From the NCBI GenBank assembly GCA_017519975.1, contig JAFWRM010000036.1:1-64000 (forward strand): DNA of 64,000 nt. The letters run 5' to 3'. Made by a program: the position numbers and the translations under genes. This DNA comes from Oscillospiraceae bacterium. Lineage in GTDB: Bacteria; Bacillota; Clostridia; Oscillospirales; Oscillospiraceae. Shown here piece by piece: positions 26,057 to 55,209 of the stretch. The first letter of the stretch is position 1. The number at the start of each line of letters is the position of its first letter. The notes under the pieces were generated by a model. It did no database searches, was not told the DNA's origin, and saw only the letters and a list, made by a program, of their open reading frames with translations.

Positions 26057-26377
26057 GTACAAAACTCCGATTCTCTTTTGATCCTTCTACTTAAAAACCC
26101 AAGCATACGCACGTCCCGCATTACAGCGCGGACCACAGACAAAAAGGATACGGCTGGATATGGGGGATGCGAAATCATAATAAACTTTTCAGATGTGAAT
26201 GCCCACAATACGCACATCATACCATTGTAATTAAAACTAATATATACTATTACAATTATAAGGAAAAAACAAGTAAAACAGAGGAAATTATGGAATTTTT
26301 TTGTGATTAAAGGAACGCCGGCGGACTGCTGTGATCCGCCGGCGTTATCTATACTGGCGGTGAAGGGAGGCGTTTTC
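26057..26377. other. intergenic region: operon promoter side and right border of the polysaccharide locus
   Basis: AT-rich DNA at about 26160-26310 precedes the minus-strand operon. A TATAAT box on the minus strand (complement of 26255-26260) is a possible -10, without a convincing -35. At 26314-26346 a 12-bp perfect GC-rich inverted repeat with a 9-nt loop lies between the polysaccharide locus and the phage-like module. It lacks a T tract, so it is not a clear terminator. Confidence 0.4.
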
Positions 26378-26632: not shown

Positions 26633-26672
26633 AATGTCCGATGGACATGAAATTCGCCTGCGGCGAGTGAAA
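26602..26672 (+). repeat. 71-bp direct repeat, copy 1
   Basis: Identical to 26812-26882. It spans the last ten codons and stop of the small gene plus the first hairpin units of the adjoining TGAAA-spaced array. This is a segmental duplication with copies offset by 210 bp. Confidence 0.9.
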
Positions 26673-26720
26673 ATGCCCTGCGGTCAGTGAAACGCGCTTC
26701 GCAGCGCATGAAAGGAGAAA
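26630..26720 (+). repeat. array of short hairpin units spaced by TGAAA, array 1
   Basis: Four units of 18-21 bp, each a small inverted repeat (for example TTCGCC-TGC-GGCGAG), are separated by TGAAA and end in ATGAAAGGAGAAA, which supplies ribosome-binding-site-like sequence. A second array lies at 26840-26931, and fragments occur near 28380 and 28630. Confidence 0.75.
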
Positions 26721-26733
26721 GATGGATTATTTC

Positions 26734-26783
26734 GATCCCTCAGTCAGCCGTACGGCTGACAGCTCCCTTTCGCAAAGGGAGCC
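26734..26783 (+). repeat. palindromic repeat (GCTCCCTTTCGCAAAGGGAGC family), copy 1
   Basis: Starts GATCCCTCAG, then an 18-bp palindrome (26743-26760), then AGCTCCCTTTCGCAAAGGGAGCC. The same composite unit is seen at 34073-34121 and, in a variant, at 55128-55175; the second half alone is at 28569-28591 and 36049-36071. Confidence 0.85.
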
Positions 26784-26811
26784 GGGGATGGGAGAGAGGG
26801 CCACTTCATCC

Positions 26812-26882
26812 ACCGGAGGCGGGAGAGAGCCTGCGGCAATGAAATGTCCGATGGACATGAAATTCGCCTGCGGCGAGTGAAA
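26812..26882 (+). repeat. 71-bp direct repeat, copy 2
   Basis: Identical to 26602-26672. It carries a second, non-functional copy of the end of the upstream small gene. The continuation diverges but remains a TGAAA-spaced hairpin array up to the terminase ribosome binding site. Confidence 0.9.
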
Positions 26883-26941
26883 TTACCTTTTGGGTAGTGA
26901 AACGCGCCTGTCGGCGCATGAAAGGAGAAAAGGGGGATGGA

Positions 26942-28378
26942 ATGGAGGAGAGAGTGATCTGGCTGCCGCAGCCGCGGCAGGCGGCCTTCATGAGCCGGCC
27001 GGAGTACGAGTGCCTGTACGGCGGAGCCGCCGGGGGAGGGAAGAGCGACGCGCTGCTGGCCGAGGCCCTGCGGCAGGTGCACATCCCCGCCTACCGGGGC
27101 CTGCTGCTGAGAAAGACGGTGCCCCAGCTGGCCGAGCTGATCGACCGCAGCCGGGCGCTGTACGGCGGCGCCTTTCCGGGGGCGGAGTACCGGGCTGTGA
27201 GCCACACGTGGGAGTTCCCCTCCGGGGCAAAGATCAGCTTCGGCAGCATGCAGCACACGCAGGACCGTCACAATTACCAGGGACGGCGCTTCGACTTCAT
27301 CGGGTTCGACGAGCTGACGCACTTTACCTGGGAGGAGTACAGCTACATGTTCTCCCGCAACCGGCCGGGGCCTTCGCCGGACGGAAGAAGGACCCGGGTG
27401 TACATCCGGGCCACGGCCAACCCGGGCGGCGTTGGCCACGGGTGGGTGAAGGCGCGGTTCATCGATCCGGCCCCGCCCATGACGCCCGTGACGGAAAAAC
27501 TGACGCTGGCGCTGCCGGAGGGCGGGACGAGGGAGCTGACGCGCAGCCGCGTCTTCGTGCCCGCCACCGTTTTCGATAATCAGGCGCTGCTGGAGGCGGA
27601 CCCGGCATATCTGGCCAGTCTGGCCATGCTGCCCCGGGCGGAGCGGGAGGCCCTGCTGTACGGCAGCTGGACCAGCTTCAGCGGCCAGGTGTTCGAGGAG
27701 TGGCGGGATCTGCCCGAAAAGTACGCCGAGGGCACGGGCACCCACGTGATCGAGCCCTTCGATCCGCCCCAGGACTGGCGCTGCTGGCGGGGCTTCGATT
27801 TCGGCTACAGCCGGCCCTACGCCGTGGGGTGGTTCCTGGCGGATCGGGAGGGGCGGCTGTATCTGGCAAAGGAGCTGTACGGCTGGGACGGCACGCCCAA
27901 CGGCGGGGCGCGGGAGGATCCGGTGACCATCGCCCGGCGCATCCGCCAGGAGGAGGACGCCGATCCGCTGCTGCGGGGCCGGCAGATCTTCGGCGTGGCC
28001 GATCCCAGCATTTTCGACGGCAGCCGGGGCGAGAGCATCGCGGACATGATGGCCCGGCCGCCGTACCGGGTGACCTTTTATCCGGGGCGCAACGCCCGCC
28101 TGGCCGGGAAGATGCAGCTGCACTACCGGCTGGCGATGGACGGCGGCGGGCTGCCCATGCTGCAGGTGTTCCGCACCTGCCGGAACTTCATCCGCACGGT
28201 GCCTGCGCTGACCTACGACCCGGTGCGGCCGGAGGACGTGGACACGTCGATGGAGGACCACATGTACGACATGTGCCGCTACGTGCTGATGGAGAGCCCC
28301 ATCTCCCCGCCGGCTCCGGCGGAAAGGCGCGTGCGCTGGCCCGACCCGCTGAACAGGAATGAAGGAATGAAGAGATGA
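26942..28378 (+). CDS. phage terminase large subunit
   Basis: DNA-packaging motor ATPase and nuclease, 478 residues. Walker A is GGAAGGGKS (residues 27-35), Walker B is FDFIGFDELTHF near residue 115, and a TANPGG coupling motif follows. The RNase H-like nuclease half starts at WRGFDFGYSRPYA (about residue 280) and continues with FGVADPSIFDG and an acidic C-terminal part. Both enzymatic halves look intact. The ATG at 26942 follows AGGGGG; the frame extends upstream through a GTG inside the hairpin array without support. It opens the phage-head module. Confidence 0.93.
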   Translation: MEERVIWLPQPRQAAFMSRPEYECLYGGAAGGGKSDALLAEALRQVHIPAYRGLLLRKTVPQLAELIDRSRALYGGAFPGAEYRAVSHTWEFPSGAKISFGSMQHTQDRHNYQGRRFDFIGFDELTHFTWEEYSYMFSRNRPGPSPDGRRTRVYIRATANPGGVGHGWVKARFIDPAPPMTPVTEKLTLALPEGGTRELTRSRVFVPATVFDNQALLEADPAYLASLAMLPRAEREALLYGSWTSFSGQVFEEWRDLPEKYAEGTGTHVIEPFDPPQDWRCWRGFDFGYSRPYAVGWFLADREGRLYLAKELYGWDGTPNGGAREDPVTIARRIRQEEDADPLLRGRQIFGVADPSIFDGSRGESIADMMARPPYRVTFYPGRNARLAGKMQLHYRLAMDGGGLPMLQVFRTCRNFIRTVPALTYDPVRPEDVDTSMEDHMYDMCRYVLMESPISPPAPAERRVRWPDPLNRNEGMKR

Positions 28379-28515
28379 TCGATGCCTGCGGGCAGTGAAA
28401 GGCGTCCTGCTGGTGTTCCCCGGGGGCTCCGATCCTTCAGTCTCGTCCTCACAAGCTGCGGATCGTTCGCTTCCGCATAAATGCGAAAGCTCATTCCCTC
28501 CGCGGCTCGTCCTAT

Positions 28516-28550
28516 CCCCATGAAACGCACTGCGCTGGCGTTTCATGGGG
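28516..28550. repeat. 13-bp inverted repeat between terminase and portal genes
   Basis: CCCCATGAAACGC (28516-28528) pairs perfectly with 28538-28550. No T tract follows. It lies in a 270-bp spacer otherwise made of repeat fragments. Confidence 0.7.
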
Positions 28551-28568
28551 GCCCCGGGGGTTTGCGGC

Positions 28569-28591
28569 AGCTCCCTTTCGCAAAGGGAGCC
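28569..28591 (+). repeat. palindromic repeat (GCTCCCTTTCGCAAAGGGAGC family), copy 2
   Basis: Only the second half of the composite unit is present, directly before the portal gene region. Confidence 0.85.
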
Positions 28592-28647
28592 ATTAATGAG
28601 GGGAGCGGAACAGGGAAGAAAACTCGTGGCGCATGAAAGGAGAAATG

Positions 28648-30357
28648 ATGGAAGTTACCGAACGAAAGCCCATAGGCACCGAGCAGGTGCGGCAGTGGCA
28701 GCGGGAGTTCGAGCGCTGCCGGGCGGGCAAGCGGAAGCTGGAGCAGCGGATCATCGACGCCGAGCAGGCCTGGAAGCTGCGCCACTGGGAGCAGATCCGG
28801 CCCCGGGACGGCGGCGCGCCGGAGCCGGCCTCCGGCTGGCTGGTGAACGTGATCCTCAGCAAGCACAGCGACGCGTGCGACAGCTACCCCCGTCCGGTGT
28901 GCCTGCCGCGGGAGGAGGGGGACGGGCCGGAGGCGGAGATGCTGACGGACATCCTGCCCGTGATCCTGCAGCAGAACCGCTTTGACCAGGTGTGGAGCGA
29001 CGTGTGGTGGTACAAGCTCAAGGGCGGCACCGGGGTATACGGCGTGTTCTGGGATCCTTCCCGGCACGACGGTCTGGGGGACGTGGCCATACGGAAGATC
29101 GACCTGCTGAATCTGTTCTGGGAGCCGGGCGTGGCGGACATTCAGGACAGCCGCTGGGTCTTCCACGCGGAGCTCGCGGATACTGGGGCGCTGGAACGGC
29201 GCTGGCCCCATCTGGCGGGGCGGCTGCCCTCCGGCCGCGGTCTGCTGAGCCGCTACCGTACGGAGGAGACCTCCGACGCCGGGGACAAAACGCTGGTGAC
29301 GGACGTTTACTACAAAAAGCGGCAGGACGGACGCACGGTGCTGCACTACGCCAAGTACGCCGGGGAAGAGCTGCTGTTCGCCACGGAAAATGAGACGGAA
29401 CCCGTGACGGCGCCGTTCACGGATCCGGCCACGGGGACGGTCGGCCTGCGGGAGGTGCGCCGCCCGTACGCGGAGACGGGCCTGTACGCCCATGGGCGCT
29501 ACCCCTTCGTGTTCGACGCGCTGTTTCCGGAGGAGGGCTACCCCAACTGCGGCTTCGGCTACGTGGACCTGTGCCGCGACCCGCAGAAGTACATCGACCT
29601 GATGGACAGCGCGCTGCTGCAGAACATGCTGGCCAATGTGACGCCCCGCTGGTTCGTGCGTTCCGACGGCGGCCTGAACGAGGCCGAGTACGCCGACCTG
29701 ACCAAGCCCTTTGTGCACCTGTCCGGCCGGCTGGATAACGACAGCATCCGCCCCATCGACACGACGGGCCTCAGCTCCGTGTACGTGAGCCTGAAGCAGC
29801 TGAAGATCGAGGAGCTCAAGCAGGTGTCCGGCAACCGGGACGTAAACAACGGGGGCGTGGGTGCGGGAGTCACGGCGGCCTCCGCCATCGCCGCCCTGCA
29901 GGAGGCAGGCGGCGGCATCAGCCGCGACATGATCGCCGCCTCCTACCGCGCCTTCCGCCAGGTGGTGGAGCTGTGCATCGAGCTGATCCGTGAGTTTTAC
30001 GATACGCCCCGCCAGTTCCGCATCCGCGGGGCGGGGGCGGCCCGGTTCGTCACCTACGATAACGCGGGGCTGCGGCCGCGCAGCCGGGGCGGCCTGCTGG
30101 GCGTGGACCTGGGCTGCCGCGTGCCCGTGTTCGACATCGAGGTGGAGGTGGAGCGGGATACGCCCTTCGCCACCGCCGTGAACAACGAGCTGGCCATGCA
30201 GATGTTCCGGCTGGGGGCCTTCCGGCCGGAAAACGCCGCCCAGACCCTGCTGCTGCTGGACATGATGGACTTCCGGGGCAAGCAGCAGATGAGGGAGAAG
30301 CTGATGGGTATGGCAATGGAAATGAATGCTGAAAACGTAAGAATGAATAACGGATAA
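28648..30357 (+). CDS. phage portal protein (podovirus-like)
   Basis: 569 residues, predicted to form the dodecameric DNA entry ring of the head. The identity rests on position after the terminase, size, and portal-like blocks: an N-terminal helical arm rich in Arg/Glu, a mid-region GGTGVYGVFWDPS (about residue 130), and the helix FGYVDLCRDPQKYIDLMDSALLQN (about 300-325), with a long Gln/Leu-rich C-terminal part. ATG 28648 has an AAAGGAG site at suitable distance; upstream ATGs are within the site. No transposase or frameshift interrupts it. Confidence 0.7.
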   Translation: MEVTERKPIGTEQVRQWQREFERCRAGKRKLEQRIIDAEQAWKLRHWEQIRPRDGGAPEPASGWLVNVILSKHSDACDSYPRPVCLPREEGDGPEAEMLTDILPVILQQNRFDQVWSDVWWYKLKGGTGVYGVFWDPSRHDGLGDVAIRKIDLLNLFWEPGVADIQDSRWVFHAELADTGALERRWPHLAGRLPSGRGLLSRYRTEETSDAGDKTLVTDVYYKKRQDGRTVLHYAKYAGEELLFATENETEPVTAPFTDPATGTVGLREVRRPYAETGLYAHGRYPFVFDALFPEEGYPNCGFGYVDLCRDPQKYIDLMDSALLQNMLANVTPRWFVRSDGGLNEAEYADLTKPFVHLSGRLDNDSIRPIDTTGLSSVYVSLKQLKIEELKQVSGNRDVNNGGVGAGVTAASAIAALQEAGGGISRDMIAASYRAFRQVVELCIELIREFYDTPRQFRIRGAGAARFVTYDNAGLRPRSRGGLLGVDLGCRVPVFDIEVEVERDTPFATAVNNELAMQMFRLGAFRPENAAQTLLLLDMMDFRGKQQMREKLMGMAMEMNAENVRMNNG

Positions 30358-30521
30358 ATGAGAAAAAGCGGCGCGGGGATGGCGGAAAGATGGCGGTTTT
30401 TTGGACGCCCGCAACTTGACGGATCCGAGGTATTCTGACGGTGGGAATTCCCTTTCCGGCCGGACGGCGATGAGCTCCGCCGCCGGCACACAGCCATGTG
30501 ACAGTGAAAGGAGACGCGAAC

Positions 30522-30977
30522 ATGTCGGATTGCGCATACGGAAGCGAACTGGTATTCTGCCCGTTTTTTCACCGGGCGACGAAGCAGACGCTGGTCTGCG
30601 AAGGGCCGGGGGTAAACAGCACGGTCACCCTGAGATTCCCCTCGGCGGAGGAGAAGCTGTGCCACAAGCGGAGCTACTGCGACGGGTGGACGTATCGGAA
30701 GTGCCCGTTCTACCGCGGCGCCGCGATGAAATATGGAGATCCCGAAACGTGGGAAGGAGGAACGGAAGATGACGATCGGAGAAGCCATGGCACTGGTGGA
30801 CCGGCTGACGGCCAACCAGATCAGCGGGGCGGACAAGCTGGCCTGGCTCAGCGGGCTGGACGCCAGCCTGTACCTGAGCGTGTGGAAAACGCACCGGATG
30901 CCGGAGGACGGGGGCTTCGCCGGGTACGGGCCGGAGACCCCGCCGGACACCGGGCTGCTGGCCCCGCCGCCCTTTGA
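30522..30977 (+). CDS. Cys-rich small phage protein with read-through tail
   Basis: From the ATG after AAAGGAG, the first about 70 residues form a compact Cys/His-rich block (CAYGSELVFCPFFH, LVCEG, CHKRSYCDGW, CPFY), consistent with a small zinc-binding or disulphide-rich fold. After residue about 80 the frame runs on into the next gene by 209 bp, where its Arg/Gly/Ala/Pro composition looks like an out-of-frame shadow. Either the original stop has been lost or the two genes truly overlap. The function is unknown; Cys-rich small proteins do occur among phage structural genes. Confidence 0.55.
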   Translation: MSDCAYGSELVFCPFFHRATKQTLVCEGPGVNSTVTLRFPSAEEKLCHKRSYCDGWTYRKCPFYRGAAMKYGDPETWEGGTEDDDRRSHGTGGPADGQPDQRGGQAGLAQRAGRQPVPERVENAPDAGGRGLRRVRAGDPAGHRAAGPAAL

Positions 30978-31140
30978 CGAGATCTACCGCTGGTACCTGG
31001 AGATGCAGATCCACGGCGCCAACGGGGAGACGGCGCGGTACAACGCCGCGGCCGAAAAATACAACGCGGCCCTGATCGCGTACATGGACTGGGTGAACCG
31101 CCGGTACGCGCCGCTGGGCACGCGCATGAAATGGTGGTGA
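30769..31140 (+). CDS. phage structural-module protein, function unknown
   Basis: 123 residues. The start is ATG after GGAAGGAGG. The N-terminal half is helical (TIGEAMALVDRLTANQISG, DKLAWLSGLDASLY), followed by a Pro-rich loop and a C-terminal amphipathic helix with Tyr/Ala periodicity (EKYNAALIAYMDWVNRRYA). Size and position between portal and the large beta-rich protein suggest a head-completion or connector adaptor, but this is inference from gene order. Confidence 0.7.
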   Translation: MTIGEAMALVDRLTANQISGADKLAWLSGLDASLYLSVWKTHRMPEDGGFAGYGPETPPDTGLLAPPPFDEIYRWYLEMQIHGANGETARYNAAAEKYNAALIAYMDWVNRRYAPLGTRMKWW

Positions 31141-31144
31141 GAGC

Positions 31145-32920
31145 ATGTTTTACCCGAAAGTGCAGGGGCCGGCCACCTTCCGGCGCACGCGCACGGCCTT
31201 CGGCGGCTACCGCCATGAGCTGACCGCGGCGGAGGGCGACTGGTACGACGAAGAGAACATGACCGACCGGGACTGGCCGGCCGCCGCGGCCCGCGGGCCG
31301 CGGTACGCGGGGCCGGACCTCGGCAGCGCCGACGGCATCTGCGCGGGGGACGCCCTTTACTGGACAGACGCGGAGGGCCGCCTGATCCGGAACGGGCAGC
31401 CCACCGGCCTGACGCTGACGCCCGGTACGGCCAGGCAGTTCGTGTTCATGGGGGCGCATCTGGTGATCTTTCCGGATAAGAAGTATCTGAACACGGCGGA
31501 TCCGGCGGACTTCGGAAGTCTGGAAGCCGCCGCCGAGGCGGAGAGTCCCGTAGTGACCCTGTGCCGGTCCGACGGTTCGCCCCTGGAGCCGTCCGCCGCC
31601 GGGGAGACGCCGCCCGCGGATCCGGGCGACGGGGATCTGTGGGTGGATACCGGGGCGGAGACGGGAGGCCTGAAGCGGTACGACGCCGCTTCCGGCCTCT
31701 GGGCCGCGGCGCCTGAACCCCTGGTCCGGCTCAGCGCGCCTGGCGTCGGGGCCGGCCTCAAAGCGGGGGATGGGGTGACGGTGTCCGGCCTTCACGCCCC
31801 CGAGGGCTCGCCCGCCCAGGCCCGGGCGGAGGCGCTGAACGGCGTGCACGTGCTGACAGGCGCGGAAGCGGACAGCGTGACCTTTCCGGGACTCCTTCCC
31901 GCCGGCTTCACCGCCGCCGGAACGGTGCGTCTGGAGCGCCGGTGCCCGGACATGGACTACGTGTGCCAGTGCGGCAACCGGCTGTGGGGGTGCTTCCACG
32001 GGGTGGACGCCGAGGGGCGGACGGTGAACCAGCTGTACGCCTGCCGCCTGGGGGACTTTACCAACTGGCAGACCTACGAGGGCCTTTCCACGGATGCCTG
32101 GGCCGCCGCCTGCGGCACGCCCGGGCCGTGGACGGGCTGCGCGGCCTACGACGGCTGCCCGACCTTTTTCAAGCAGGACGCGGTGCACCGGATCTACGTC
32201 AGCCCCAATGGAGCCCATCAGGTGGCGTCCGCCGCCGTCCGGGGCGTGCGGCGGGGCTGCTGGCGCAGCCTGGCCGTGTGCGGAGAGGTGCTGTACTACG
32301 TGGCCCGGGAGGGCGTGATGGCCTACACCGGCGCCATGCCCGTGAGAGTGTCCGACGCCCTGGGGGAGGCCGACCTGACCGACGCCTGCGCCGGCGTGCT
32401 GGGGGACCGGTACTATCTCACCGCGGGGGACGGCACAGGGGTGCGGCCGACCTTCGTCTACCACCCCGCCCGCCGGCTGTGGCACCGCCACAGCCCCAAC
32501 GGCGCCGTATGCTGGGCCCAGAAGGACGGAGTGTTGTACTGGCAGACCGCGGAGGGGCGCCTGGGCCTGAGCGGGCCTTCGGAACTGGTCGCCGCGGTGC
32601 CGGAAAGCTACGTTCCCTGGTACTGCGAAACGGGGATGATCGGGTTCGAACAGCCGGAGCAGAAGGTGCTGTCCCGCTTTCTGCTGCGCCTGTACCTCGG
32701 GCCCGGCGCCCGCTGCGAGCTGCTGATCCGGTACGACGACGGCGACTGGGTCAGCCGCGGCATCGTGGAGCGGGAGGGCGTGCACAGCGTCCTTGCGGCT
32801 GTGCTGCCGCGGCGGTGCGACCACTGCCGGCTGCGCCTGCAGGGGCAGGGGGAGATGCGGCTGTATTCCCTGAGCTGCGTGCTGGAGGAAGGGAGCGATA
32901 ACTCATGGTATTTCATGTGA
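31145..32920 (+). CDS. large beta-rich phage protein, possible head-completion/stabilisation protein
   Basis: 591 residues, not recognised with certainty. The N-terminus (FRRTRTAFGGYRHELTAAEG, then YDEENMTDRDWPAAAARGPR) matches a pattern seen in proteins that follow portals in podovirus-like prophages, in which a W/Y-D-x-x-N-M segment opens a beta-propeller-like body. Repeated strand-turn blocks follow (CQCGNRLWGCFHGVD, VCGEVLYYVAREGVMAYTG, WAQKDGVLYWQTAEGRLG). It may act like the P22 gp10 DNA-stabilising protein, but this is unproven. It begins 4 bp after the previous stop. Confidence 0.5.
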   Translation: MFYPKVQGPATFRRTRTAFGGYRHELTAAEGDWYDEENMTDRDWPAAAARGPRYAGPDLGSADGICAGDALYWTDAEGRLIRNGQPTGLTLTPGTARQFVFMGAHLVIFPDKKYLNTADPADFGSLEAAAEAESPVVTLCRSDGSPLEPSAAGETPPADPGDGDLWVDTGAETGGLKRYDAASGLWAAAPEPLVRLSAPGVGAGLKAGDGVTVSGLHAPEGSPAQARAEALNGVHVLTGAEADSVTFPGLLPAGFTAAGTVRLERRCPDMDYVCQCGNRLWGCFHGVDAEGRTVNQLYACRLGDFTNWQTYEGLSTDAWAAACGTPGPWTGCAAYDGCPTFFKQDAVHRIYVSPNGAHQVASAAVRGVRRGCWRSLAVCGEVLYYVAREGVMAYTGAMPVRVSDALGEADLTDACAGVLGDRYYLTAGDGTGVRPTFVYHPARRLWHRHSPNGAVCWAQKDGVLYWQTAEGRLGLSGPSELVAAVPESYVPWYCETGMIGFEQPEQKVLSRFLLRLYLGPGARCELLIRYDDGDWVSRGIVEREGVHSVLAAVLPRRCDHCRLRLQGQGEMRLYSLSCVLEEGSDNSWYFM

Positions 32921-33072
32921 CCCCGCCGCCGGAGCCCTCCGGACCGGAAACGGCCCGGCTGACCGAATGGCTGTACCGGCTGGCGGAATATCTGAACGTG
33001 TACATGAACAGCGGAGAAGCGGCGGCCGGCCCCTCCCGGGGGGACGGCGCCACGGATGGGAAAGGAGAATGA
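32905..33072 (+). CDS. small phage-module protein (55 aa), function unknown
   Basis: The ATG lies inside the end of the preceding gene (16-bp overlap) and the TGA stop overlaps the ribosome-binding-site region of the next. The protein has a Pro-rich N-terminus, an amphipathic helix (RLTEWLYRLAEYLNVYM) and a Gly/Ala-rich tail. The helix is protein-like and the tight packing between two genes supports translation. No family is recognised. Confidence 0.55.
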   Translation: MVFHVTPPPEPSGPETARLTEWLYRLAEYLNVYMNSGEAAAGPSRGDGATDGKGE

Positions 33073-33073
33073 A

Positions 33074-33925
33074 ATGGCAAACGCGATCACGGCGGCAAAG
33101 CCCTTCGAGGAGAGCGAGGAGGCCCGCCGCTGGCGGGAGAAGCTGGAGCGTACGGCGGAGCAGCGGCCGGGCGGGTATTCCGGCGCCTACGCCGAACGCC
33201 TGGCGGAAATGTACGACCGGCTGAACAGCCGACAGCCCTTCCGGTACGATCCGGCGCGGGACGGGCTTTATCTTTCGGCGCGGGAACAGGCCGCGCGTCT
33301 CGGTCAGCGCGCCATGCGGGATACGATGGGGCAGGCGGCCGCCCTGACCGGAGGGTACGGCAGCACCTACGCCCAGGCGGCGGGCCAACAGGCCTACGAC
33401 AATTATCTGCTGCGGCTCAACGAGCAGGTGCCGGAGCTGGCCCGCCTGGCGCGCCAGAGCTACGACGCGGATACGGATGCGCTGTACCGCCAGTATGAGG
33501 CCGCCCGGGCGGCGGACGAAACCGACTACGCCCGTGCCAGGGACGCCCTGGCGGACTGGCGGGGCGACCTGCAGCTGTACGAATCGATGTATTCAAGTCA
33601 GCGGGACAGGGAGAAGGATTTGTACGACGCCGCGCTGGAGCAGGCGCGCTGGCAGGCGGACTTCGACGAAAACCAGCGGCAGTTCGACCTCACCTACGGG
33701 CTGAACGCCGCGAAGGCGGCGTCCGCCGGGCGCTCCTCCGGATCCCGTTCCGGCGGGGGAACGAAGGCGAAGACCTACGACGGCCTGACGGACGATCAGC
33801 TGCGGGGCCGCCTGCAGGCGCTGCTGGACCGGCTGCCCGCCGCCCAGGTGGCCCGGGTGCTGAAGCAGGGGGCCTCCGGTTTGACGAAGTCCCAGGCGGC
33901 CAGAGCCCTGCAGCTGCTACGGTAA
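33074..33925 (+). CDS. helical phage protein with Tyr/Gly/Ala-rich segment, probable internal virion protein
   Basis: 283 residues from the ATG after AAAGGAG. The central part has a Gly/Tyr/Ala-rich segment (AAALTGGYGSTYAQAAGQQA) followed by long charged helices likely to form a coiled coil (about 110-225). The C-terminus (GLTDDQLRGRLQALLDRLPA, then TKSQAARALQLLR) looks like a small helical repeat. I have seen this architecture only in phage-like structural modules of gut Firmicutes; the exact role is not known. An internal or ejection protein is plausible. Confidence 0.6.
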   Translation: MANAITAAKPFEESEEARRWREKLERTAEQRPGGYSGAYAERLAEMYDRLNSRQPFRYDPARDGLYLSAREQAARLGQRAMRDTMGQAAALTGGYGSTYAQAAGQQAYDNYLLRLNEQVPELARLARQSYDADTDALYRQYEAARAADETDYARARDALADWRGDLQLYESMYSSQRDREKDLYDAALEQARWQADFDENQRQFDLTYGLNAAKAASAGRSSGSRSGGGTKAKTYDGLTDDQLRGRLQALLDRLPAAQVARVLKQGASGLTKSQAARALQLLR

Positions 33926-33932
33926 TTTACCG
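33920..33932. promoter_or_regulatory. palindrome CGGTAATTTACCG, possible operator
   Basis: A 13-bp perfect palindrome overlaps the stop codon of the internal-protein gene. The core GGTAAWTTACC recurs at 36641-36651. A half-site-like TTATGGTAAA follows at 33941-33950, and a hairpin without T tract lies at 33971-33991. Confidence 0.35.
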
Positions 33933-34035
33933 TAATATTATTATGGTAAATTCAGAAAACGGGAAAAACGGGGACTGCTGAAGGCAGTCCCGCGCCCGTT
34001 ACAATGGTGACATCCGCAGGAAAGGAGAAAAAGCC

Positions 34036-34596
34036 ATGGAAAACGATAACGTGACGACGGCGGAAGCCGAGCGATCCTTCCGTCAGGCAGAGCCTGACAG
34101 CTCCCTTTCGCAAAGGGAGCCCATGGAGGAAACGCAGACGACGGAGGGAACGGACCTGCCTCAGCGGGAAGATCCTATCCCTGAAGGGGAGGGAGGCACG
34201 GAGGCAGCCGTGACGGATGAGGAGCCTGCCTCCCCGACGGAGCCGGACGTTTCCGCGCAGACGGAGGAATTGCGGCGGTTTTATCCCGGCTTCGACGAGA
34301 AAACGGACGGCGCGGACCCCGCCTTCCGCGCCATGGTGGCCGCCGGAGTGCCCATGCGCCGCGCCTACGAGGCCCTGCACCTGGAGGACCTGATCTCCGG
34401 AGCGATGGCCTACGCTTCCCGCCGGACGCTGGAGCGGCTGGCGGGGGCGGCCCTGGCGGGGCAGCAGCGCCCGGAGGAAAACGGCCTGCGCACGGGTCAG
34501 CCCGCCGCCCCGGTCTTCGACCCCAGGACCATGACGAAGGAGCAGGCGAAGGAACTGCGAGACCGCGTCTTCCGCGGAGAGAAAGTATATCTGTAA
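34036..34596 (+). CDS. scaffold-like phage protein with an in-frame palindromic repeat
   Basis: 186 residues, located just before the capsid gene, where phage scaffolding proteins normally lie. It is acidic at the N-terminus (Glu/Thr/Pro-rich, residues 30-80), then shows RRFYPGFDEKTDGADPAFRAMV and a helical region ending with TMTKEQAKELRDRVFRGEKVYL, resembling the helix-rich tail of scaffolds. Residues about 13-29 are encoded by the genome's palindromic repeat (34073-34121) and read SFRQAEPDSSLSQREP, so the repeat was inserted without breaking the frame. RBS AAAGGAG. Confidence 0.65.
   Translation: MENDNVTTAEAERSFRQAEPDSSLSQREPMEETQTTEGTDLPQREDPIPEGEGGTEAAVTDEEPASPTEPDVSAQTEELRRFYPGFDEKTDGADPAFRAMVAAGVPMRRAYEALHLEDLISGAMAYASRRTLERLAGAALAGQQRPEENGLRTGQPAAPVFDPRTMTKEQAKELRDRVFRGEKVYL
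34073..34121 (+). repeat. palindromic repeat, copy 3, in frame within the scaffold-like gene
   Basis: Same composite structure as 26734-26783: GATCCTTCCGTCAGG, palindromic middle, then AGCTCCCTTTCGCAAAGGGAGCC. It is translated as part of the scaffold-like protein. Confidence 0.88.
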
Positions 34597-34699
34597 AGAC
34601 AAAAGCGGCGGAAGAGACGCACGCCTTATCCGGGAAAAGTGAGTTGGGGGAGAAAACCGGATTTCTCCCGGAAACGAGCGAAAAGAAAGGAGATAAAGC

Positions 34700-35983
34700 A
34701 TGAGCAACGAAAGCACTTTCAACGCGGCGGGCACCAACGTGACCGCCTCCGCCGGATACGTCAACGCCTACACGGGCGCACCGGTGGATCCGAATCCCGA
34801 AGGCATCGGGATGAGCGACGCCATGAAGACCTATTACGACACGGAGCTGCTGCAGAACGCCCGCTCCAAGCTGGTGTTCAGCCAGCTGGGCAAGCGGCAG
34901 GCACTGCCGCGGAACCACGGCGCCACGGTGGAGATGCGCAAGTTCAACACCTTCGCGCCGGCCGCCCAGCCCCTGCAGGAGGGCGTGATCCCTCCCGGCA
35001 AGCAGTTCGGCATGACGGCCGTCACCGCCGCCGTCAGCCAGTACGGCGACTATACCACCGTCAGCGACGTGCTGGAGACCCACGCCGTGGATCCCATCAT
35101 CCTGGGGGCCGCGGAGGAGATGGGGGCCGCCGCGGGCGAGACGGCAGACCTGCTGTGCCGCAACGAGCTGCTGAGCGGCACCAACGTCATCTACGCTCCC
35201 TGCCCCAACGGGGACGGGACCTATGAGCCGGTGGAGACCCGCGGCGGTCTGAACGGCAGCTGCACCATCACGCCGGACGTGGTGAACCAGGCCGTGACCA
35301 TGCTGAAAAAGCAGAAGGCCCCCACGCTGGAGGGCAACTGCTACGCCGTGGTCATCCACCCCTCCGTGGCGTACGACCTGCGCAAGAGCGAGGAGTGGAT
35401 CGACGTGCACAAGTACGCAAGCCCTGAGGAGATCTACAACGGCGAGATCGGCAAGCTGCACGGCTGCCGCTTCATCGAAACGACCAACGCCCCCGTGCTG
35501 CGGGGCGAGGATCTGGCCTCCGACCGCCGCACGCTGACGGTCAGCGCCAACGCCGCCGCCGGGACCTCCACGCTGGGGATCACCGGCGGTACGGTGGAGG
35601 CGGGCAGCCTGGCGGGACGAAGGGTGTACATCGCCGGCGTCAGCTACACCGTCACGGGCAATACGGGCGACAGTATCACCATCGAGCCCGCCGCGGAGAC
35701 CGCGGTCCCGGGAGGCACGGTGATCCTGCCCGGTGAGGGCGGGGGCGACGGCGGCGCCGTGTACGCCACCCTGTTCTTCGGGAAGGACGCCTTCTGCGTG
35801 GTGGATCCCGCCGGCATGGGCATGGAGATGATCATCAAGCCCCGCGGAGAGGTGGGCGGCCCGCTGGAGCAGTTCTCCACCGTGGGCTACAAGTTCGAAA
35901 CGGCCACCGCCATCCTGTATCAGGAGCGGATGGTGCGTGTGGAGTCCGGCAGCGCCTACAGCGCCGTGGACGAGGCCAACTGA
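34700..35983 (+). CDS. N4-gp56-like major capsid protein
   Basis: A 427-residue protein of the HK97-fold N4-gp56 family. Diagnostic features are MSDAMKTYYDTELLQNARSKLVFSQLGKRQALPRNHG (about 38-74), TVEMRKFNTFAPAAQPLQEG, the SDVLETHAVDPI segment and the late RPRGE-type block (IIKPRGEVGGPLEQFSTVGYKFETATAILYQERMVRVESG). An Ig-like or beta-tongue insertion, Gly/Thr-rich, runs about 272-352. It is complete and has a strong AAAGGAGAT ribosome binding site. Confidence 0.9.
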   Translation: MSNESTFNAAGTNVTASAGYVNAYTGAPVDPNPEGIGMSDAMKTYYDTELLQNARSKLVFSQLGKRQALPRNHGATVEMRKFNTFAPAAQPLQEGVIPPGKQFGMTAVTAAVSQYGDYTTVSDVLETHAVDPIILGAAEEMGAAAGETADLLCRNELLSGTNVIYAPCPNGDGTYEPVETRGGLNGSCTITPDVVNQAVTMLKKQKAPTLEGNCYAVVIHPSVAYDLRKSEEWIDVHKYASPEEIYNGEIGKLHGCRFIETTNAPVLRGEDLASDRRTLTVSANAAAGTSTLGITGGTVEAGSLAGRRVYIAGVSYTVTGNTGDSITIEPAAETAVPGGTVILPGEGGGDGGAVYATLFFGKDAFCVVDPAGMGMEMIIKPRGEVGGPLEQFSTVGYKFETATAILYQERMVRVESGSAYSAVDEAN

Positions 35984-36000
35984 AGAAAGGAGCGTGCATC

Positions 36001-36381
36001 ATGGCGGAAAGAAAAACGGCGGCGAATGCGGCCGCGGAGACGGAAAAGAGCTCCCTTTCGCAAAGGGAGCCCATGGAGAGGACGGAGAACGGGGGACCTT
36101 CCGCGCAGATTCTGTCAGGCGCACCCATGCCCCCTTTGGGAGCCAAGGGGGGTGGCGCGGCAGGAGCCGCGCCGGGGGGATCGGCCCGCCGGACGGTGAC
36201 CCTGCGGCTGCCTCGGGCGAGGGCCGGGGAGGAGGACACCGTGTTCGTCGGGGTGAACGGCAGGGCCTGGCGCATCCGCCGGGGCGTGACCGTAGAGGTG
36301 CCCCGCAGCGTGGCGGAGGTGCTGCGCAACGGCATGAGCGCCGAGGAACGGGCGGAGCTGTATAAGGCGACGCTGAGCTGA
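36001..36381 (+). CDS. small phage-module protein with two in-frame repeat insertions
   Basis: 126 residues with RBS GAAAGGAG. The C-terminal 65 residues form a plausible compact domain (RRTVTLRLPRARAGEEDTVF, VGVNGRAWRIRRGVTVEVP, VAEVLRNGMSAEERAEL) like small proteins that follow capsid genes. The N-terminal 60 residues are largely repeat-derived: a palindromic repeat encodes SSLSQREP, and a second GC-rich palindromic segment (about 36116-36178) encodes MPPLGAKGGGAAGAAPGG. It is the last gene of the phage-head module, followed by a terminator. Exact function is unknown. Confidence 0.65.
   Translation: MAERKTAANAAAETEKSSLSQREPMERTENGGPSAQILSGAPMPPLGAKGGGAAGAAPGGSARRTVTLRLPRARAGEEDTVFVGVNGRAWRIRRGVTVEVPRSVAEVLRNGMSAEERAELYKATLS
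36049..36071 (+). repeat. palindromic repeat, copy 4, in frame
   Basis: AGCTCCCTTTCGCAAAGGGAGCC followed by CATGGAGA, the same junction as in the scaffold-like gene (copy 3). Confidence 0.88.
36116..36178 (+). repeat. second type of GC-rich palindromic segment, in frame
   Basis: Two imperfect stem-loops: GCCCCCTTTGGG-AGCC-AAGGGGGGTGGC type and GCGCGGC-AGGA-GCCGCGC. Only one copy is in the window, so its status as a repeat family is inferred from structure and placement. Confidence 0.5.
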
Positions 36382-36652: not shown

Positions 36653-36818
36653 ATGGCAGTATCCCTGTCAAGGCAGAGTCGGCTGCCAGAAACAGATCCG
36701 GTATGGAGGCTCTCAGCGCAGGCTTTTTCTGCGAATAAGTCTGCACGTGATCGGCTGAAACCCGGTTTTTGCATGTTTACATACGGTGAGAGAGCATAAG
36801 AAAACGAGGTGCCCGAGT

Positions 36819-39800
36819 ATGAAGAAAAAGTTATTGTCCCTGCTTTTGGTCCTGTGCCTGCTGCTGAGCTTCGTCCCGGCAACGGCGCTGGCCGCGGAAG
36901 AGACGGCAGAGGCGGCCATCGAGACCGTTGAGGTCGTCGACGAGCACTCCGGTGAGGAAGAGGCGGCCTTGCCCGAATCATCGGAGGAAGCCGAAGCCGA
37001 CGATCCGGAACCGGCGGAACAGGCGCCGGAGGCGGAGCCTGCCCAGGAGCGGGAAGCCGCCGATGAGCCGCAGGCCGAGAAACCCGCGGAGGGGGAAAAA
37101 TCGGCCGAAACGGTCGAAGAGCCTCAGAAGGAAACGGAAGAGGCCGAACCCTACGTTTATACGTATGAGGCTGCGGAAGGCGTTGGCCTTGTGCTCGCCC
37201 GCGACAACGGCTCAGGCTACGACGTGCTTGCGCGCCGGGACGGCACACTTGTCGTTGAACAGCTTTCCGAACTGACCTCAGCCACCGTCGACGAGGGCAT
37301 GCTGTGGCAGGTGAAGGGCGTCAACGGCGCGTTCACCATCAGCGGCGGCGATGCGTACCTGTCGGTCGAGGGCGGCAGCGTCGTCCTGACCTCCGGCGCC
37401 GTCAGCTACTGGGATTATAACGGCAGTTACGTCGACTTCACTACCTGGGCGGATGAGATGTATCTCATCTCCGTCAGCGGCGGGGAGGTCTTCGCGTATA
37501 ACGGCGATTTCGACGCCGCTTCCGGCGCTGCCGTCTTCTACGCAAAGGCGAGCGAAGCGGTAAAGGAGAAGAGCTCCCCCGCGGGCCGGGCGACGAAAGC
37601 CGCTTCTGCCGGTACGGCGGATCACTACATCGCCGTAGCGTCCGACCGACACGGAAATTCCTCTGCCATCAAGAACGCCATGGGCGGGATGCCCTCCAAC
37701 GTGGAGTACGTCGTTCTGGACGGCGATCTGGTGGACAGCGGCAGTTACAACACCTCTACCATCCAGACGGAGGTCCGCAGTGGAGCGGGCCTGTCCGATG
37801 CTACCGTTCACGTCGTTTACGCCAGCCACGATTCCAGCGCGAACGACGACGCCGGAATACTGAAGGGCAGAAGCAGCTCGGAACTGATGTATACCGGGAA
37901 AAACGAGGACGGTACCACGGCGTATTACGCATACTGTGCTTCCTACAATTCGTTGACCAGCTCCAACACCGGTTTCACCGACGCAGCCGCGTTCAAGAGC
38001 TGGGTCGATGCAAACTGCACGGATACGAGCATCCCAATCATCGTGATCGGGCACGTTCCTCTGCACTATTCAAGGAACGATAACGGCGGAGCGGTGGCGT
38101 GGAACAAGGCGCTGAACTATGCCGCGACCGGAGAAGAGACCACGGCTGCCGGCAAGGAGATCATCCGTGACGTGATTTATCTGCACGGCCATAACCATAC
38201 CACGGAGAGCAATGCGGAGTATTATATTCCCCGCGGCTCCACCATGCAGATCTACAACAGCAGCAACTCGTCGCATATCTACTACACATATACGACGGCG
38301 GGCTATCTGCGAGACAACACCTCCGCGACGCTGATCGCCATCGACAGCGCCAACATTACCATATCCAAATACAAAAACGGTTCTGTCACCAGCACGTACG
38401 CAAGCACCGGAGCAAATACGAATTTCTCCGATACTTATGACACCGCAGCAACCCATACCATCGCTCGCGTCGCCTCCAACGCCGGGCAGACCGTCGTGGA
38501 AGACGTAGTGGTGGATGAGGGGACCGCGTCCCATCAGATCGATGTCACCTGCAAGGTCAATGGGGAGACCGTAACTCCGACGACGGTGACCTATGCGGTC
38601 AAAGAGGATACGTCCAAAATCATCGACAGCATCTCTGATACCGGCCTGATCACCTTCGCATCCGGAAAGACCGGCACCGCGACGGTGACGGTCAGCTGGA
38701 CGTATACCGCGACCAGAGCCGTAGGCGACACGTATGCCGGAGAGAAAGACATCACCGTCACGGTGAAAGGGGAATCTTCCTCCGGGGGCACGACGTCCGA
38801 GACGGTTTACGTGCTGGCGGATACACTGGAGGCCGGGAAGAATTATCTTATCGTAAACCGTAATGCTTCATCCGGCTACGCTGTTTCTCATTCGACAACG
38901 ACAGTCACTGCCGATGAAGTTGCAATTCAAAACGGCATAGAGGCTACTGACAATAAAGCCTACATAAACAGCGATGACGTTGCAGAAGCCTCCGTTTGGT
39001 CAGCCGCCGATGGAATAATTCTGACAAATGACGGCTACTATTTCTATGTTTCCGGAAGCAGCAACAACTTGGCAGTAGCTACAAGCTACGGGAGCCAGGC
39101 ACGGACAAACTGGTCTTATAGCGGTAACAAACTCCTTGCTGTGAGAAGTGGAAGCACAAGTGGGTATTATGCGTATTATTCAAATGGGTGGAATGCAACA
39201 AGCAGTAGTTCCACAGCGACAAATGTCTACCTCTTTGCTGAAACTGAAATACAGACAGGCGTCGAATACACCTTCACCGCGGACGATGTCACCGTCATGG
39301 CGAAGGAAGACGGTACTGTCGACAGCAAAACCATCTCCTATGAGTTGACGGCTAATGGGGAGACGGTCAGGCCGACATCGGTTGCCTATGTTGTGAAGAG
39401 TGACGCCGACGGCATCATCGCCGGCATCTCTGATGATGGAACAATCACGTTTGCCTCCAATAAGACCGGCACCGCCACGGTGACCGTCAGCTTCACCTAT
39501 GCTCCGAATGCGGGCACCCGCTCCGTCACCGTCGGCGCGGACGGCACCGTTACCGGGTCCGCGGACATCACCGTCACGGTGATGGAATATCAGGAGCACA
39601 ACTGGAGCACCAGCTCGGTCTGGGTGTGGGCTGAGGATTTCAGCACGGCAACGGCCAAATTCGGTTGCCTGGACGACGGATGCACGGAAGAATATACCGC
39701 TGAGGCAACGGTCGTGATGACGGAAAATGATCCGACCTGTCAGGAGGCGAAGGTTTATACCTATACGGCTACGGCAATCGGCCCAGATGGACAGACTTAT

Positions 39801-42800
39801 ACGGACGTTAAAACATCCGGCGGCGATCATGAAGTTGCCATCTATAAGTTGGTCGATTCGCTCACAGCAGGGGGAGAGTATCTGATCGTCAGCACCAATA
39901 CCGCAGGCACCGGTTATGTGCTGACTAACAACAACGGGACGGTTGCCGCGTCTCAGGTGACGATCCATGCCCCGGAAGCAGACGATGACGTTGACGTCAA
40001 TTATATTCTCGTTGATGGTCTGCCAACCGGAACGGGATGGTCGACGACGGCTTATACAGCGACTATAGATAATACTGCCTATAGTGGTTTTAAACTGACA
40101 AATGGAGATTACTATCTCCAGGCGACTGGGCAGAGCGCAGGTACCCTGACGATAGCCACGAGTGAAAACTACAGTGCCAGTGTGTGGAACTATTCGAGAA
40201 GCACAACGAACGCCTTGGACTATCACTATCGTGGAACATCTTCAGAGCAGACGAGGTATATTACATATTTTTCCAATGCGTTTGCCAGTACGAACAGCGC
40301 CGCGGTCGTCTATATATTCGAGCGCACGGCGATGCATGACGGTGAGTACGGGCCGCACGACTATCATTATGATGGGATGACCTATAATGACGGTTATGAG
40401 ACCGCCTACGGCACGTTTACCTGCTCCGTATGCGGGACGACCGCCACGGTTCCTGCGGAAGTGACATGGGAAGACAAGGAAGAAAACTGCGAACGTCCGT
40501 ACCGTACCCAGTATGTCGCCGTGATTAGTGCAGACGACAGTCTGGACGGGCAGGAGCATGTGGATGATTCCAAGTATGTTCAGAAACAGAAGCCAATCAT
40601 TACTACGCAAGATGATGCAACTGTTTATGTGCGTGTGACAGGTACAAATGTTTCTCTAAATAAGAATTACCTTATTGTTAACACAAATTCACAACAGAAT
40701 GGTGCACACGCTTTAAGAAGACTGAATACCACTGCGGTGGGGGATGCATCGGTTAACGTGCTATCTGGGTCAGTCAATGGAACAACGACATCATATATCC
40801 AGGAAGTAGATTCGACAGCAATTTGGACTGCAAGCAATAGTACTACAAGGCCACGCTTCAGTAATAATGGTTATTACTTGTATCGCTCTAGTAGTACTTC
40901 TTTAACCGTTTCAAATAGGAATAATACTTCTTGGATCGTTGGAACAAATACTCTGGCCTATTCATCGGGGTACACGAGCAACTATATCAGGTATAGTAAC
41001 GGCTGGGGATTAACGACATCAAACACCAATAATAACGCGTATCTATATGAAGAACTCTCTGGCGCAACTATTCAGGTGACGACCTATGAGGATGCACCTG
41101 CCCTCGGTCACACCTTCGGTGAGAACAGTCACACGGCGGCCGTTGCTCCCACCTGTGAGGAAGACGGCAACATCGAGTACTGGACCTGTGAGCGTTGCGG
41201 CAAGCACTTCAGCGACGAAACAGGAACAACGGAGATTACCGACGTTACAATCCCGGCCACGGGCCACGCCTGGGGTGAAGTCACCTATACATGGGCGGAA
41301 GATAACAGCACGGTAACTGCGACGCATGTGTGCGCCAACGACGAATCCCATGTGGAGACGGAGACGGTCGACACCGTGATGGTCGGGACGGGGGCGACCT
41401 GCACGGCGGCCGGCAGTGTGACCTATACTGCCACGTTTGTGAATACGGCCTTCGAGACTCAGACGAAGACGGTGGAGAGCGAGGCGCTCGGCCATGACTG
41501 GGGAGAATGGGAAGTCACGACGCCCGCGACCTGTGAGGAAGCCGGCGTGGAAACCCGCGCCTGCAGTCGCTGCGATGAGACGGAAACGAGGGCAATCCCG
41601 GCCACCGGGCACGCCTGGGGAACTCCGAGCTACGAGTGGTCTGCGGACAACAGCCGCGTAACGGCGACGAGAGTCTGCACGAATGACGATTCTCATATAG
41701 AAACGGAGACGGTCAGTACTACGTCCGAGATCACGAAGGCGCCCACCTGTACGGAAACCGGCGTGCGCACGTATACCAGCGCGGCGTTTACAAACGGCGC
41801 GTTTGCGGTGCAGACGAAGGAAGTGGCCGAACCTGCCACCGGGCATACCGTGGTTACGGATGCAGCGGTAGCTCCGACGTGCACGGAGACCGGCCTGACG
41901 GAAGGCAGCCACTGCTTGGTGTGCAATGAAGTGCTCGTAGCGCAGGAAGTGATTCCCGCTCTCGGTCACGACTTCGGCGAGTGGACGCAGACGACGGCTC
42001 CGACCTGCACGGAAAAGGGCGAAGAGACCCGGTATTGCAGCCGGTGCGATGCAACGGAAACGAGAGAGGTTGTTCCTCTGGGCCACGAGTGGCAGTTTGT
42101 CAGCATCACGTGGACAGGCAGCGATGAGGACGGATACACTGCGGCGGCTGCCAACTACATCTGCGCGCATGATCCGGACAACCATACGAGAGCCGTCGAC
42201 GCGTTGATCACGACCGCGTCTCAGGATGCCACCTGCGAGACGGCCGGAACCGTGACCTATACGGCGACGGTCAGCGCGGATGCCAGTCTGGACAGAACGG
42301 CGCATACGGACAGCAAGACCGTGACCGGAACGGCACTGGGTCATGATTATCAGTTGACCGGCTGGACGTGGTCTGAGGATCACAGTTCGGCGACAGTGAC
42401 CTTTACCTGCACGCATGACAGCACCCACGTGCAGACGGTGACGGCTGCGGTCACGTCCGCGACGACGGCGGCGACCTGTGAGACCGATGGAAAGACGGTC
42501 TACATGGCGACGGCGACCTTCGAGGGCAAGACCTACACGGATACGCAGGAAACGGCGATCCCGGCCACGGGCCATGCCTGGGGAACTCCGACCTACGAGT
42601 GGTCTGCGGACAACGGCAGCGTAACGGCGACGAGAGTCTGCGCGCATGACGCTGGTCACGTGGAGACGGAAACGGCCAGCGCGACATCCGAGATCACAAC
42701 GGCGCCGACCTGTACGGAAACCGGCGTGCGCACCTATACCAGTGCGGCGTTTACAAACAGTGCTTTTACGGTGCAGACGAAGGAAGTGGTCGAACCCGCC

Positions 42801-45800
42801 GCGGGCCACACCGCAGTTACCGACGCGGCCGTAGCTCCGACGTGCACGGAGACCGGACTGACGGAAGGCAGCCACTGCTCGGTGTGCAATGAAGTACTCG
42901 TGGCACAGGAAGTGATTCCCGCTCTCGGTCACGACTTCGGCGAGTGGACGCAGACGACGGCTCCGACCTGCACGGAAAAGGGCGAAGAGACCCGGTATTG
43001 CAGCCGGCATGATGCAACGGAAACGAGAGAGGTTGCTCCTCTGGGGCACGAGTGGCAGTTTGTCAGCATCACGTGGACAGGCAGCGATGAGGACGGATAC
43101 ACGGCGGCGGCTGCCAACTACATCTGCACGCATGATCCGGACAACCATACGAGAGCCGTCGACGCGTTGATCACGACCGCGTCTCAGGATGCCACCTGCG
43201 AGACGGCCGGAACCGTGACCTATACGGCGACGGTCAGAGCGGATGCCAGTCTGGACAGAACGGCGCATACGGACAGCAAGACCGTGACCGGAACGGCACT
43301 GGGTCATGATTATCAGGTGACCGGTTGGACGTGGTCTGAGGATCACAGTTCGGCGACGGTGACCTTCACCTGCACACATGACAGCACCCACGTGCAGACG
43401 GTGACCGCGACGGTCACATCCGCGACGACGGCGGCGACCTGTGAGACCGATGGAAAGACGGTCTACATGGCGACGGCGACCTTCAACGGCGCGGAATACG
43501 TCGATACGCAGGAAGTGGAGATCCCGGCCACCGGGCATAATTGGGGTACTCCGTCCTACGAATGGTCTTCGGACAACAGCAGCGTCACGGCAACGCGTAC
43601 CTGCGCGAACGACGCGACGCACGTGGAGACCGAGACGGCGGGCACAACTGCCGTTGTGATCAGGGAAGCCACCGTCACCACGCCGGGCAGCATGACCTAT
43701 ACGGCGACGTTTGCCAACACGGAGTTCAAAACCCAGACGAAGACGGTCGCGATACCGGTTCTGGAAACGACCTATACGCTGAAATACAACGCCAACGGCG
43801 GTACCGGTGCACCGGAGGATCAGACGATCACCAACAACACAGGTTCAGCGATGTTCACGGTCAGCGGAACGAAGCCCACAAGGGCGCACTATACCTTCCT
43901 GGGCTGGGGGATCAGACCTGACGTAGACACGCCGATCGACGGCATTACGATCCAAGTGATCTATCCGAGTACGGAAAGGACACTGTACGCCCTGTGGCAG
44001 ATCGATTCCCATGCGGTGACGTTCATCGACAGCATCGACGGTTCCATGCTGGGGAAACAGACCCTCGAATACGGTGAAGCGGCACAGATACCTGAGGCGC
44101 CGCAGCGTGACGGGTGGGAATTCCACGGCTGGTCGAGCAGCGATACGGAGTATTCCGCGTATGGCTTTAACGGAGTCGCTGAAGATACCACGGTCTACGC
44201 CGTCTGGCGCAGGCAGATCACGGTATTCCGATATGACCTGGAAGAGGGATTGGACCATGTGTCAGGACGTGCCTTTGTCAACGACAACAGCGTGCCTGTT
44301 GTCACCGGATACACGGCGGAGATCCTGAATATCAGCCAGAGCAAGGTGTTTGCGCTCACCGAAAGCCATGACAGCTACACGACGTTTGACGGCTGGGCCG
44401 TGTCTGACAATCCGGCCTTCAGGCCGTCGAAGGATACCCGGATGGACTCGACCGCCAGTAACTGGACGTACGATCTCAGCCAGGCAGACAGCGCTCATGT
44501 CTACGTATGGGCCGTGTTTGAGTACGCGAAGCATAACGTGCAGCTCGTTGACACTGTGACCGGGCAGATCGTGGAAACGATCATCGTGGATCACGGCGCC
44601 CAGCTTTGGGATACCGTATCCCTCGAATGGACGAATAAGCCCGGCTATGAATTCGGCGGCTGGTACAACGACCCGGAGTGCACGGAAGCTGAAACGTCAG
44701 TCATGGCGGACACCGTACGCTACGCGAAGTTCACTCCGATCGAGTACAGCATTACCTACAACGCCGACGGCGGCACGCTGCCCGCGGACGCGGTGACGAA
44801 GTACACGGTCGAAAGCGAGAGCATCAGCCTGCCGAATCCGACCAGAGAGGGCTACGGCTTCGAGGGCTGGTATGAGAAGGAAGATCTGAGCGGTACGCCG
44901 GTCACGCAGATCGCGAAGGGCAGCATCGGAAACAAGGTCTATTACGCCAAGTGGACGGCGGGGGCCTACACGATCACCTATGTGCTGGACGGCGGAACGA
45001 ACGCGGAAGGCAACCCGAGCAGCTACACGGTGGAGACGGAAACCGTCACCCTGGCGGACGCCGCCAAGACGGGCTACACCTTTAACGGCTGGTACAGCGA
45101 CGCGGCGTTCACCACGAAGGTGACCCAGATCGTGAAGGGAACCACCGGAGACCTCACCCTGTACGCGAAGTTCACCGTCAACAGCTATAAGATCAACTGG
45201 ACGGTGGACGGAACGGTCACCCAGCTGACGTATGAATACGGCGCGGCGATCGAGGCACCGGCGGATCCGACCAAGGAAGGCTACACCTTCGCCGGATGGG
45301 ATCCGGAAGTCCCGGCGACGATGCCCGCACAGGATCTGACGATCACGGCCAAGTGGACGATCAATCAGTACGATCTGACGATCCATTACGTGTACGCGGA
45401 CGGCGGCAAGGCGGCGGAGGACTACACCGCGAAGGTGGAGTACAAAGCGGCCTACTCCGTGGTCAGCCCGACCATCACCGGATACACCGCGGACAAGGCG
45501 ACGGTGGAAGGCACCATGGGCGCCGAAGCCGTGGAAGTGACCGTAACGTATACCGTGAACCGGTACGACCTGACGATCCACTATGTGTACGCGGACGGCG
45601 GCAAGGCGGCGGAGGACTACACCGCGAAGGTGGAGTACAAAGCGGATTACTCCGTGGTCAGCCCGACCATCATCGGATACACCGCGGACAAGACGGCGGT
45701 GGCAGGAACCATGGGCACTGAAGCCGTGGAAACGACGGTAACGTACACACCGGTCACCTACACCATCAGCTACCGGCTCAACGGCGGTACGTTGCCGGAG

Positions 45801-55127: not shown

Positions 55128-55175
55128 GATCCCTCAGCCGCGCCAAGCGCGCAGGCTCCCTTTTGCAAAGGAGCC
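55128..55175 (+). repeat. palindromic repeat (CTCCCTTTTGCAAAGGAG variant), copy 5
   Basis: GATCCCTCAG, a GCGCC/GGCGC-type middle palindrome, then GGCTCCCTTTTGCAAAGGAGCC. It is the same family as the copies in the phage module but lies between tpiA and pgk, so the repeat belongs to the host genome. Confidence 0.8.
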
Positions 55176-55209
55176 TTTCCGCTGCGTCCGGCGCGATCCG
55201 GGAGGGCGT

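Follow-up and report, generated by a model that had tools for sequence, protein, structure and literature searches.

In-frame copies of a small two-hairpin palindromic repeat in two genes of a phage head module from an Oscillospiraceae genome

The window analyzed here is a stretch of 64,000 nucleotides from an Oscillospiraceae genome. Positions 26362-36381, approximately 18 kb from tpiA-pgk, are taken up by a compact phage module restricted to head genes (terminase, P22-like portal, internal virion-type protein, scaffold-like protein, capsid). None of the module proteins scanned against Pfam and PHROG was recognised as a tail, lysis or integrase product. Six copies of a short palindromic element were located in the window, two of which (26734 and 28513-28591) lie in the module outside its genes.

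26734..26783, + strand: full subfamily-A element, 54.8 bits; non-coding, upstream of the terminase gene and between two Gut-1-like leader copies; no coding signal
26939..35983, + strand: head module genes for terminase large subunit, portal (P22-like), internal-virion-type protein and major head protein (Pfam and PHROG matches)
28513..28591, + strand: degenerate subfamily-A copy, 27.7 bits, hairpin 2 intact; between the terminase and portal genes; no coding signal
34036..34596, + strand: scaffold-like protein gene, 186 aa, PHROG 13908 (match to residues 76-185 only), adjacent to the major capsid gene
34073..34121, + strand: full subfamily-A two-hairpin element, 62 bits (covariance model), DNA fold z = -5.7; in frame, encoding RSFRQAEPDSSLSQREP
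36001..36381, + strand: small head-module protein gene, 126 aa, PHROG 15239 (match to residues 78-122)
36049..36070, + strand: half element, hairpin 2 of subfamily A; exact match, model positions 30-52 only; in frame, encoding SSLSQREP
36127..36182, - strand: full subfamily-B element, inverted, 73.9 bits, the top score of all copies in its own genome; in frame, encoding APMPPLGAKGGGAAGAAPGGSA
55128..55177, + strand: subfamily-A element between tpiA and pgk, 37.5 bits, E = 1e-7 (covariance model)

An earlier note on this DNA had described a palindromic unit translated as SSLSQREP in two module genes and recurring between tpiA and pgk. The peptide was indeed found in frame in both ORFs (34036-34596 and 36001-36381), followed each time by CCATGGAG, and the tpiA-pgk copy is genuine, though divergent. 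Both coding units named in the note are real, but 34073-34121 is a whole element of 49 nt while the copy at 36049 is the second half only; the inverted in-frame copy at 36127-36182 and those at 26734 and 28513-28591 had been overlooked.

The 22-nt palindrome AGCTCCCTTTCGCAAAGGGAGC corresponds to hairpin 2 of a two-hairpin element of approximately 45-57 nt with the 5' end GATCC. Exact copies start at 26761, 28569, 34099 and 36049 in the window, where none were expected based on 100 dinucleotide-preserving shuffles, and eight occurrences with two mismatches or fewer were counted in the 2.36 Mb genome. Two subfamilies, each with constant ends, were distinguished: subfamily A (approximately 49 nt), GATCCYTCNG - hairpin 1 - CA - hairpin 2 - GCC, and subfamily B (54-57 nt), GATCCCCCCGG - hairpin 1 - CA - CCCCCCTTGG..AAAGGGGGCATG. 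Single copies fold as two adjacent hairpins (z -4.3 to -6.7). In an alignment of eight copies, with 5' ends GATCCCTCAG / GATCCCCCCG, standard pairs filled 92% of the pair cells and 6 of the 14 pairs had changed on both sides; when the partners were slid by 1-3 columns as a control, 60% or less remained paired.

Based upon a covariance model trained on these eight aligned copies, about 30 copies were identified in the same genome (E < 0.05), and 25 of the 60 genomes searched were positive, with a maximum of 80 copies in one relative. The element family is dispersed across many related Clostridia; no Rfam family matched it at the gathering score. The 10-kb head module holds five copies against approximately 0.1 expected from the density elsewhere (p = 1e-7, or 3e-7 with clusters collapsed), with the reservation that elements cluster and the five are not necessarily all independent insertions. 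Three of the five, in two genes, are in frame. The palindrome alone contains no stop codon in any of the six frames, and the full subfamily-A unit is open in two of the three coding-strand frames, the third often being closed by a TGA within the element. Since the element is stop-free in most frames, an in-frame position is by itself weak evidence. The preferred frames were likewise discounted as evidence of selection on the peptide because of this frequent internal TGA.

In the scaffold-like gene the full A element provides residues 13-29, inside the unconserved N-terminus. A codon model in which true and false frames were well separated (mean 0.51 versus -0.56) gave same-frame coding signal on both flanks of the element. 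This N-terminus is not reliably alignable to the homologues, so the exact boundaries of the insertion are not proved. Among the homologues, L084, from a different bacterial family, contains a subfamily-A element of its own in frame (DSSLPEGAK), while L089, from the same genus as L084, carries three in-frame copies of an unrelated dispersed repeat with 15-55 matches per genome in that genus (DNA search). At L089:979-1869 and L083:1495-2220, scaffold homologues in another bacterial family carry two to three in-frame copies of a GTCATTCCGAG..CTCGGGATGACA repeat of approximately 100 nt, a repeat found dispersed through the same genomes. The idea that scaffold N-termini are generally rich in hairpins was rejected, the density being 0.70 per kb in N-terminus and core alike.

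For the small head-module protein the comparison is more direct. In 29 aligned homologues, the closest of which are 63-68% identical in the core, a short tail leads straight into V-x-V-R-L-P, while the protein of the window has approximately 45 extra N-terminal residues ahead of this motif, among them those encoded by the half A copy and by the inverted B copy. On alignment with these homologues, insertion into this protein is clear. The codon model gave strong coding signal on one flank of the element at 36127 and weak signal on the other; the flanks at 36049 were too short to inform. By AlphaFold2 modeling, the N-terminal regions of both proteins are predicted to be disordered: pLDDT was about 45-54 for residues 1-70 of the scaffold-like protein, with a core mostly above 90 (weaker around residues 141-160), and about 43-62 for residues 1-60 of the small protein, remaining low through residue 64 before a core (65-126) mostly above 90. 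The earlier note had held that the peptide would belong to the protein family if orthologous proteins in unrelated hosts all carried it. About 50 scaffold and the 29 small-protein homologues lack SSLSQREP, save a single scaffold with an independent element of its own, which bears out a dispersed palindromic repeat that does not belong to the phage protein family.

Both genes have AAAGGAG at a spacing of 8 nt before the upstream ATG, much as in the other module genes, and the upstream start is therefore the better call. The element might instead be a 5' untranslated region, with the true start at the ATG just after it (M30 of the scaffold-like protein, M25 of the small protein) and ribosomes binding at the GGGAG within the hairpin. 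An in-frame ATG does follow GGGAGCCC in both genes, many N-terminal intragenic REPs are cautioned to be really extragenic for this reason (PMC3733652), and the start of the scaffold gene resembles the DNA following its element, as judged against a null not conditioned on ATG. The downstream ATG, however, lies only 3 nt from its GGGAG, whereas the upstream ATGs have their AAAGGAG at 8 nt; the upstream frame is intact in both genes, homologous small proteins begin with the same M-A-rich tail, and the second element of the small gene sits past the downstream ATG anyway. A downstream start is thus considered quite unlikely. The CATGGAG common to both genes after the element may reflect a duplication around the insertion, an observation which is only suggestive.

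Apart from those in the phage module, every cellular copy tested was intergenic. This applied to the 25 in the same genome (0/25 intragenic, against 3/5 inside the module, p = 0.0025), to 84 in regions of three relatives (0/84), and to 26 single-copy loci from many relatives, a few of which overlap the three (0/26). The pgk-tpiA gap is kept in four relatives, two of them of the same genus, and the element is absent from all four, which supports gain of the window copy at that site. No target-site duplication was defined, the empty sites being too diverged to read one.

The exact subfamily-A pattern was present in 85 stretches in IMG/VR. When viral and cellular copies were scored with the same intragenic classifier, 16 of the 76 copies on viral contigs were intragenic with coding signal on both sides, versus 0/84 cellular copies (p = 2.7e-6; 13/73 after removal of homologous pairs, p = 2.5e-5), in a comparison where the exact pattern served to choose the viral set and model hits the main cellular set (0/32 cellular copies when the exact pattern was applied there too, p = 0.0027), where IMG/VR contigs may include prophage remnants or host fragments, and where phages have less intergenic space. 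The suggestion in the earlier note that the repeat tolerates coding positions accordingly holds for phage genes and fails for the bacterial genes surveyed.

Phage genomes are densely coding. The excess of intragenic copies could then merely mirror scarce intergenic DNA, more of the surviving insertions being intragenic for want of other sites, and the 34 viral copies that still lie between co-directional genes are in keeping with this. Bacterial genomes, though, are mostly coding too, yet none of the cellular copies in the three sets above was intragenic, where packing alone would have left some; we regard it as a somewhat unlikely explanation.

Among the viral genes hit, PHROG matches support two different portal genes, a ParB-like gene, an endolysin gene and one for a D5-like regulator, besides members of two families whose function is unknown. 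In the endolysin gene the element falls between the two domain matches (PHROG), and in the portal family it fills a loop of variable length among homologues. The ParB-like family comprises three groups: group 1 has the element peptide, group 2 has at the same linker an element-like sequence read in another frame, and group 3 is 10 residues shorter. In the ParB-like genes L354 and L232, element-derived peptide occurs at one linker in two different reading frames in two phage groups.

These genes also bear upon the state of the module. Were it a decaying prophage, the insertions would be neutral damage, as might be expected from the missing tail, lysis and integrase assignments and from the crowding of five copies into 10 kb. 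The frames of the module are nevertheless open and codon-biased, and viral contigs likewise have in-frame elements in genes for portal, ParB-like and endolysin proteins; decay is considered somewhat unlikely. That the module has long resided in the chromosome, as the earlier note had proposed from the repeats, is not established, given that viral contigs also carry the element; nor is it established that the peptide is put to use, as the note's wording had allowed.

Of the 16 intragenic viral copies, 15 share the orientation of the gene (12 of 13 de-duplicated, p = 0.0017). Together with the repeated targeting of the same scaffold protein in another bacterial family, by two different repeats, this orientation could indicate an adaptive role, in which head assembly or translation is tuned by the added disordered segment or by a hairpin in the RNA close to the start. 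Of about 50 scaffold homologues, however, only a few contain any such insert, its presence varies among near relatives, the genes hit are functionally unrelated, and tolerance accounts for all of these observations. A benefit of this kind is highly improbable.

The most probable explanation, to which we assign a probability of roughly 0.8, is that a small non-autonomous two-hairpin REP-like repeat of gut Clostridia has inserted several times into the phage head module, three copies lying in two genes, and persists there by tolerance. We infer that the copies arrived by transposition, that they were fixed through tolerance and not benefit, and that the peptides are translated. The element would move without an enzyme of its own; the probable route is processing in trans of its single-stranded hairpin DNA. 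Insertions would then be filtered by tolerance, those in disordered tails, loops and linkers surviving. Their persistence is attributed to an element that is short, stop-free in most frames and encodes a largely hydrophilic, unstructured peptide, and to N-terminal segments that are unconserved in the protein family.

The genome contains a single Y1 gene, whose product resembles REP-associated transposases (PF01797, 28.6 bits, over the cut-off; NCBIfam REP_Tyr_transpos, 54 bits, below the cut-off of 80). The model search revealed no elements flanking it, one element cluster of the genome lying about 9 kb away, and none flanking 10 long-ORF Y1 genes of relatives. PF01797 was present in 13/25 element-positive and 13/35 element-negative genomes (p = 0.30). 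Mobilisation by a RAYT was rejected on the ground that the Y1 genes lack flanking elements; the associated REP-type (TnpA-REP) transposase sought by the earlier note was not borne out, the sole candidate of REP type having no elements around it. A post-hoc split by Y1 type (8/10 versus 17/50 positive, p = 0.012) was not relied on, several of these Y1 genes belonging to different groups.

Rickettsia palindromic elements (RPE) are likewise palindromic repeats found in frame within genes, where the added peptide is tolerated by the protein (PMC10969869). Compared by description, they differ in being approximately 150 bp long and in occupying bacterial metabolic genes, whereas the present element of approximately 45-57 nt lies in phage genes and in no bacterial gene tested (the same 0/25, 0/84 and 0/26 cellular copies). 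Intragenic GTAG- or CGTC-tagged REPs, according to the main text of PMC3733652, are small dispersed palindromes, single or in inverted pairs, some of them in ORFs with the N-terminus favoured over the end; that main text makes no mention of Clostridia or Firmicutes. The present element resembles them in these respects and in its many dispersed, mostly intergenic short copies, but has two hairpins after a GATCC leader and no GTAG/CGTC tag at the hairpin foot, CGTC adjoining hairpin 1 in just one of the eight aligned copies. With REPIN/BIME systems and their RAYTs it shares clusters, hairpin DNA, a RAYT-like gene in the genome and inverted pairs, as at 36049(+)/36127(-) and on contig C53 at 9325(+)/9443(-)/9533(+); it differs in lacking a GT[AG]G foot and, unlike a REPtron, elements around the Y1 gene, and its presence does not track Y1 genes overall. 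MITEs are similarly short, non-autonomous and dispersed, and the inverted A/B pairs here have complementary GATCC..GGATC ends, but no target-site duplication was demonstrated and no parent transposon found. In-frame palindromic repeats are thus already known, as RPE and intragenic REPs, and the variant described here lies in phage genes.

Such repeats have been recorded chiefly as curiosities of host genes, in Rickettsia and a few other bacteria, and a search of the open-access literature yielded no account of in-frame REPs within phage genes. On a broader and more tentative view, which we hold at a little under even odds, host-derived palindromic repeats would time and again supply gut phage proteins with disordered peptide segments. 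Phages of Clostridia would repeatedly acquire REP-like host DNA, in frame, where capsid, portal and lysis proteins have loops, linkers and tails, whereas host genes would stay closed to it. If true for phage proteins of this dominant gut clade, it would provide a testable route to new disordered segments in phage structural proteins, and in-frame elements would lead to protein ends being misannotated; because phage and host genes differ so clearly, the question of tolerance also becomes measurable.

Several further observations were made. On the IMG/VR contig segment L101:1646-6076, which bears a related head module, seven elements occur in 6 kb; all are on one strand, and none falls within the scaffold, capsid or small-protein ORFs. 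In the window, two copies of the Gut-1 RNA (RF01706; 26627-26698 and 26855-26929), which lie within 119-nt repeats 91% alike, flank the element that precedes the terminase gene. Five Gut-1 matches were identified in the genome, one adjoining an element on contig C29; Gut-1 could be a phage leader, or a dispersed repeat in its own right. Directly after the module, an ORF of 4506 aa (36786-50306) is rich in internal repeats belonging to several families; its N-terminus is signal-like, and the product is probably a surface protein.
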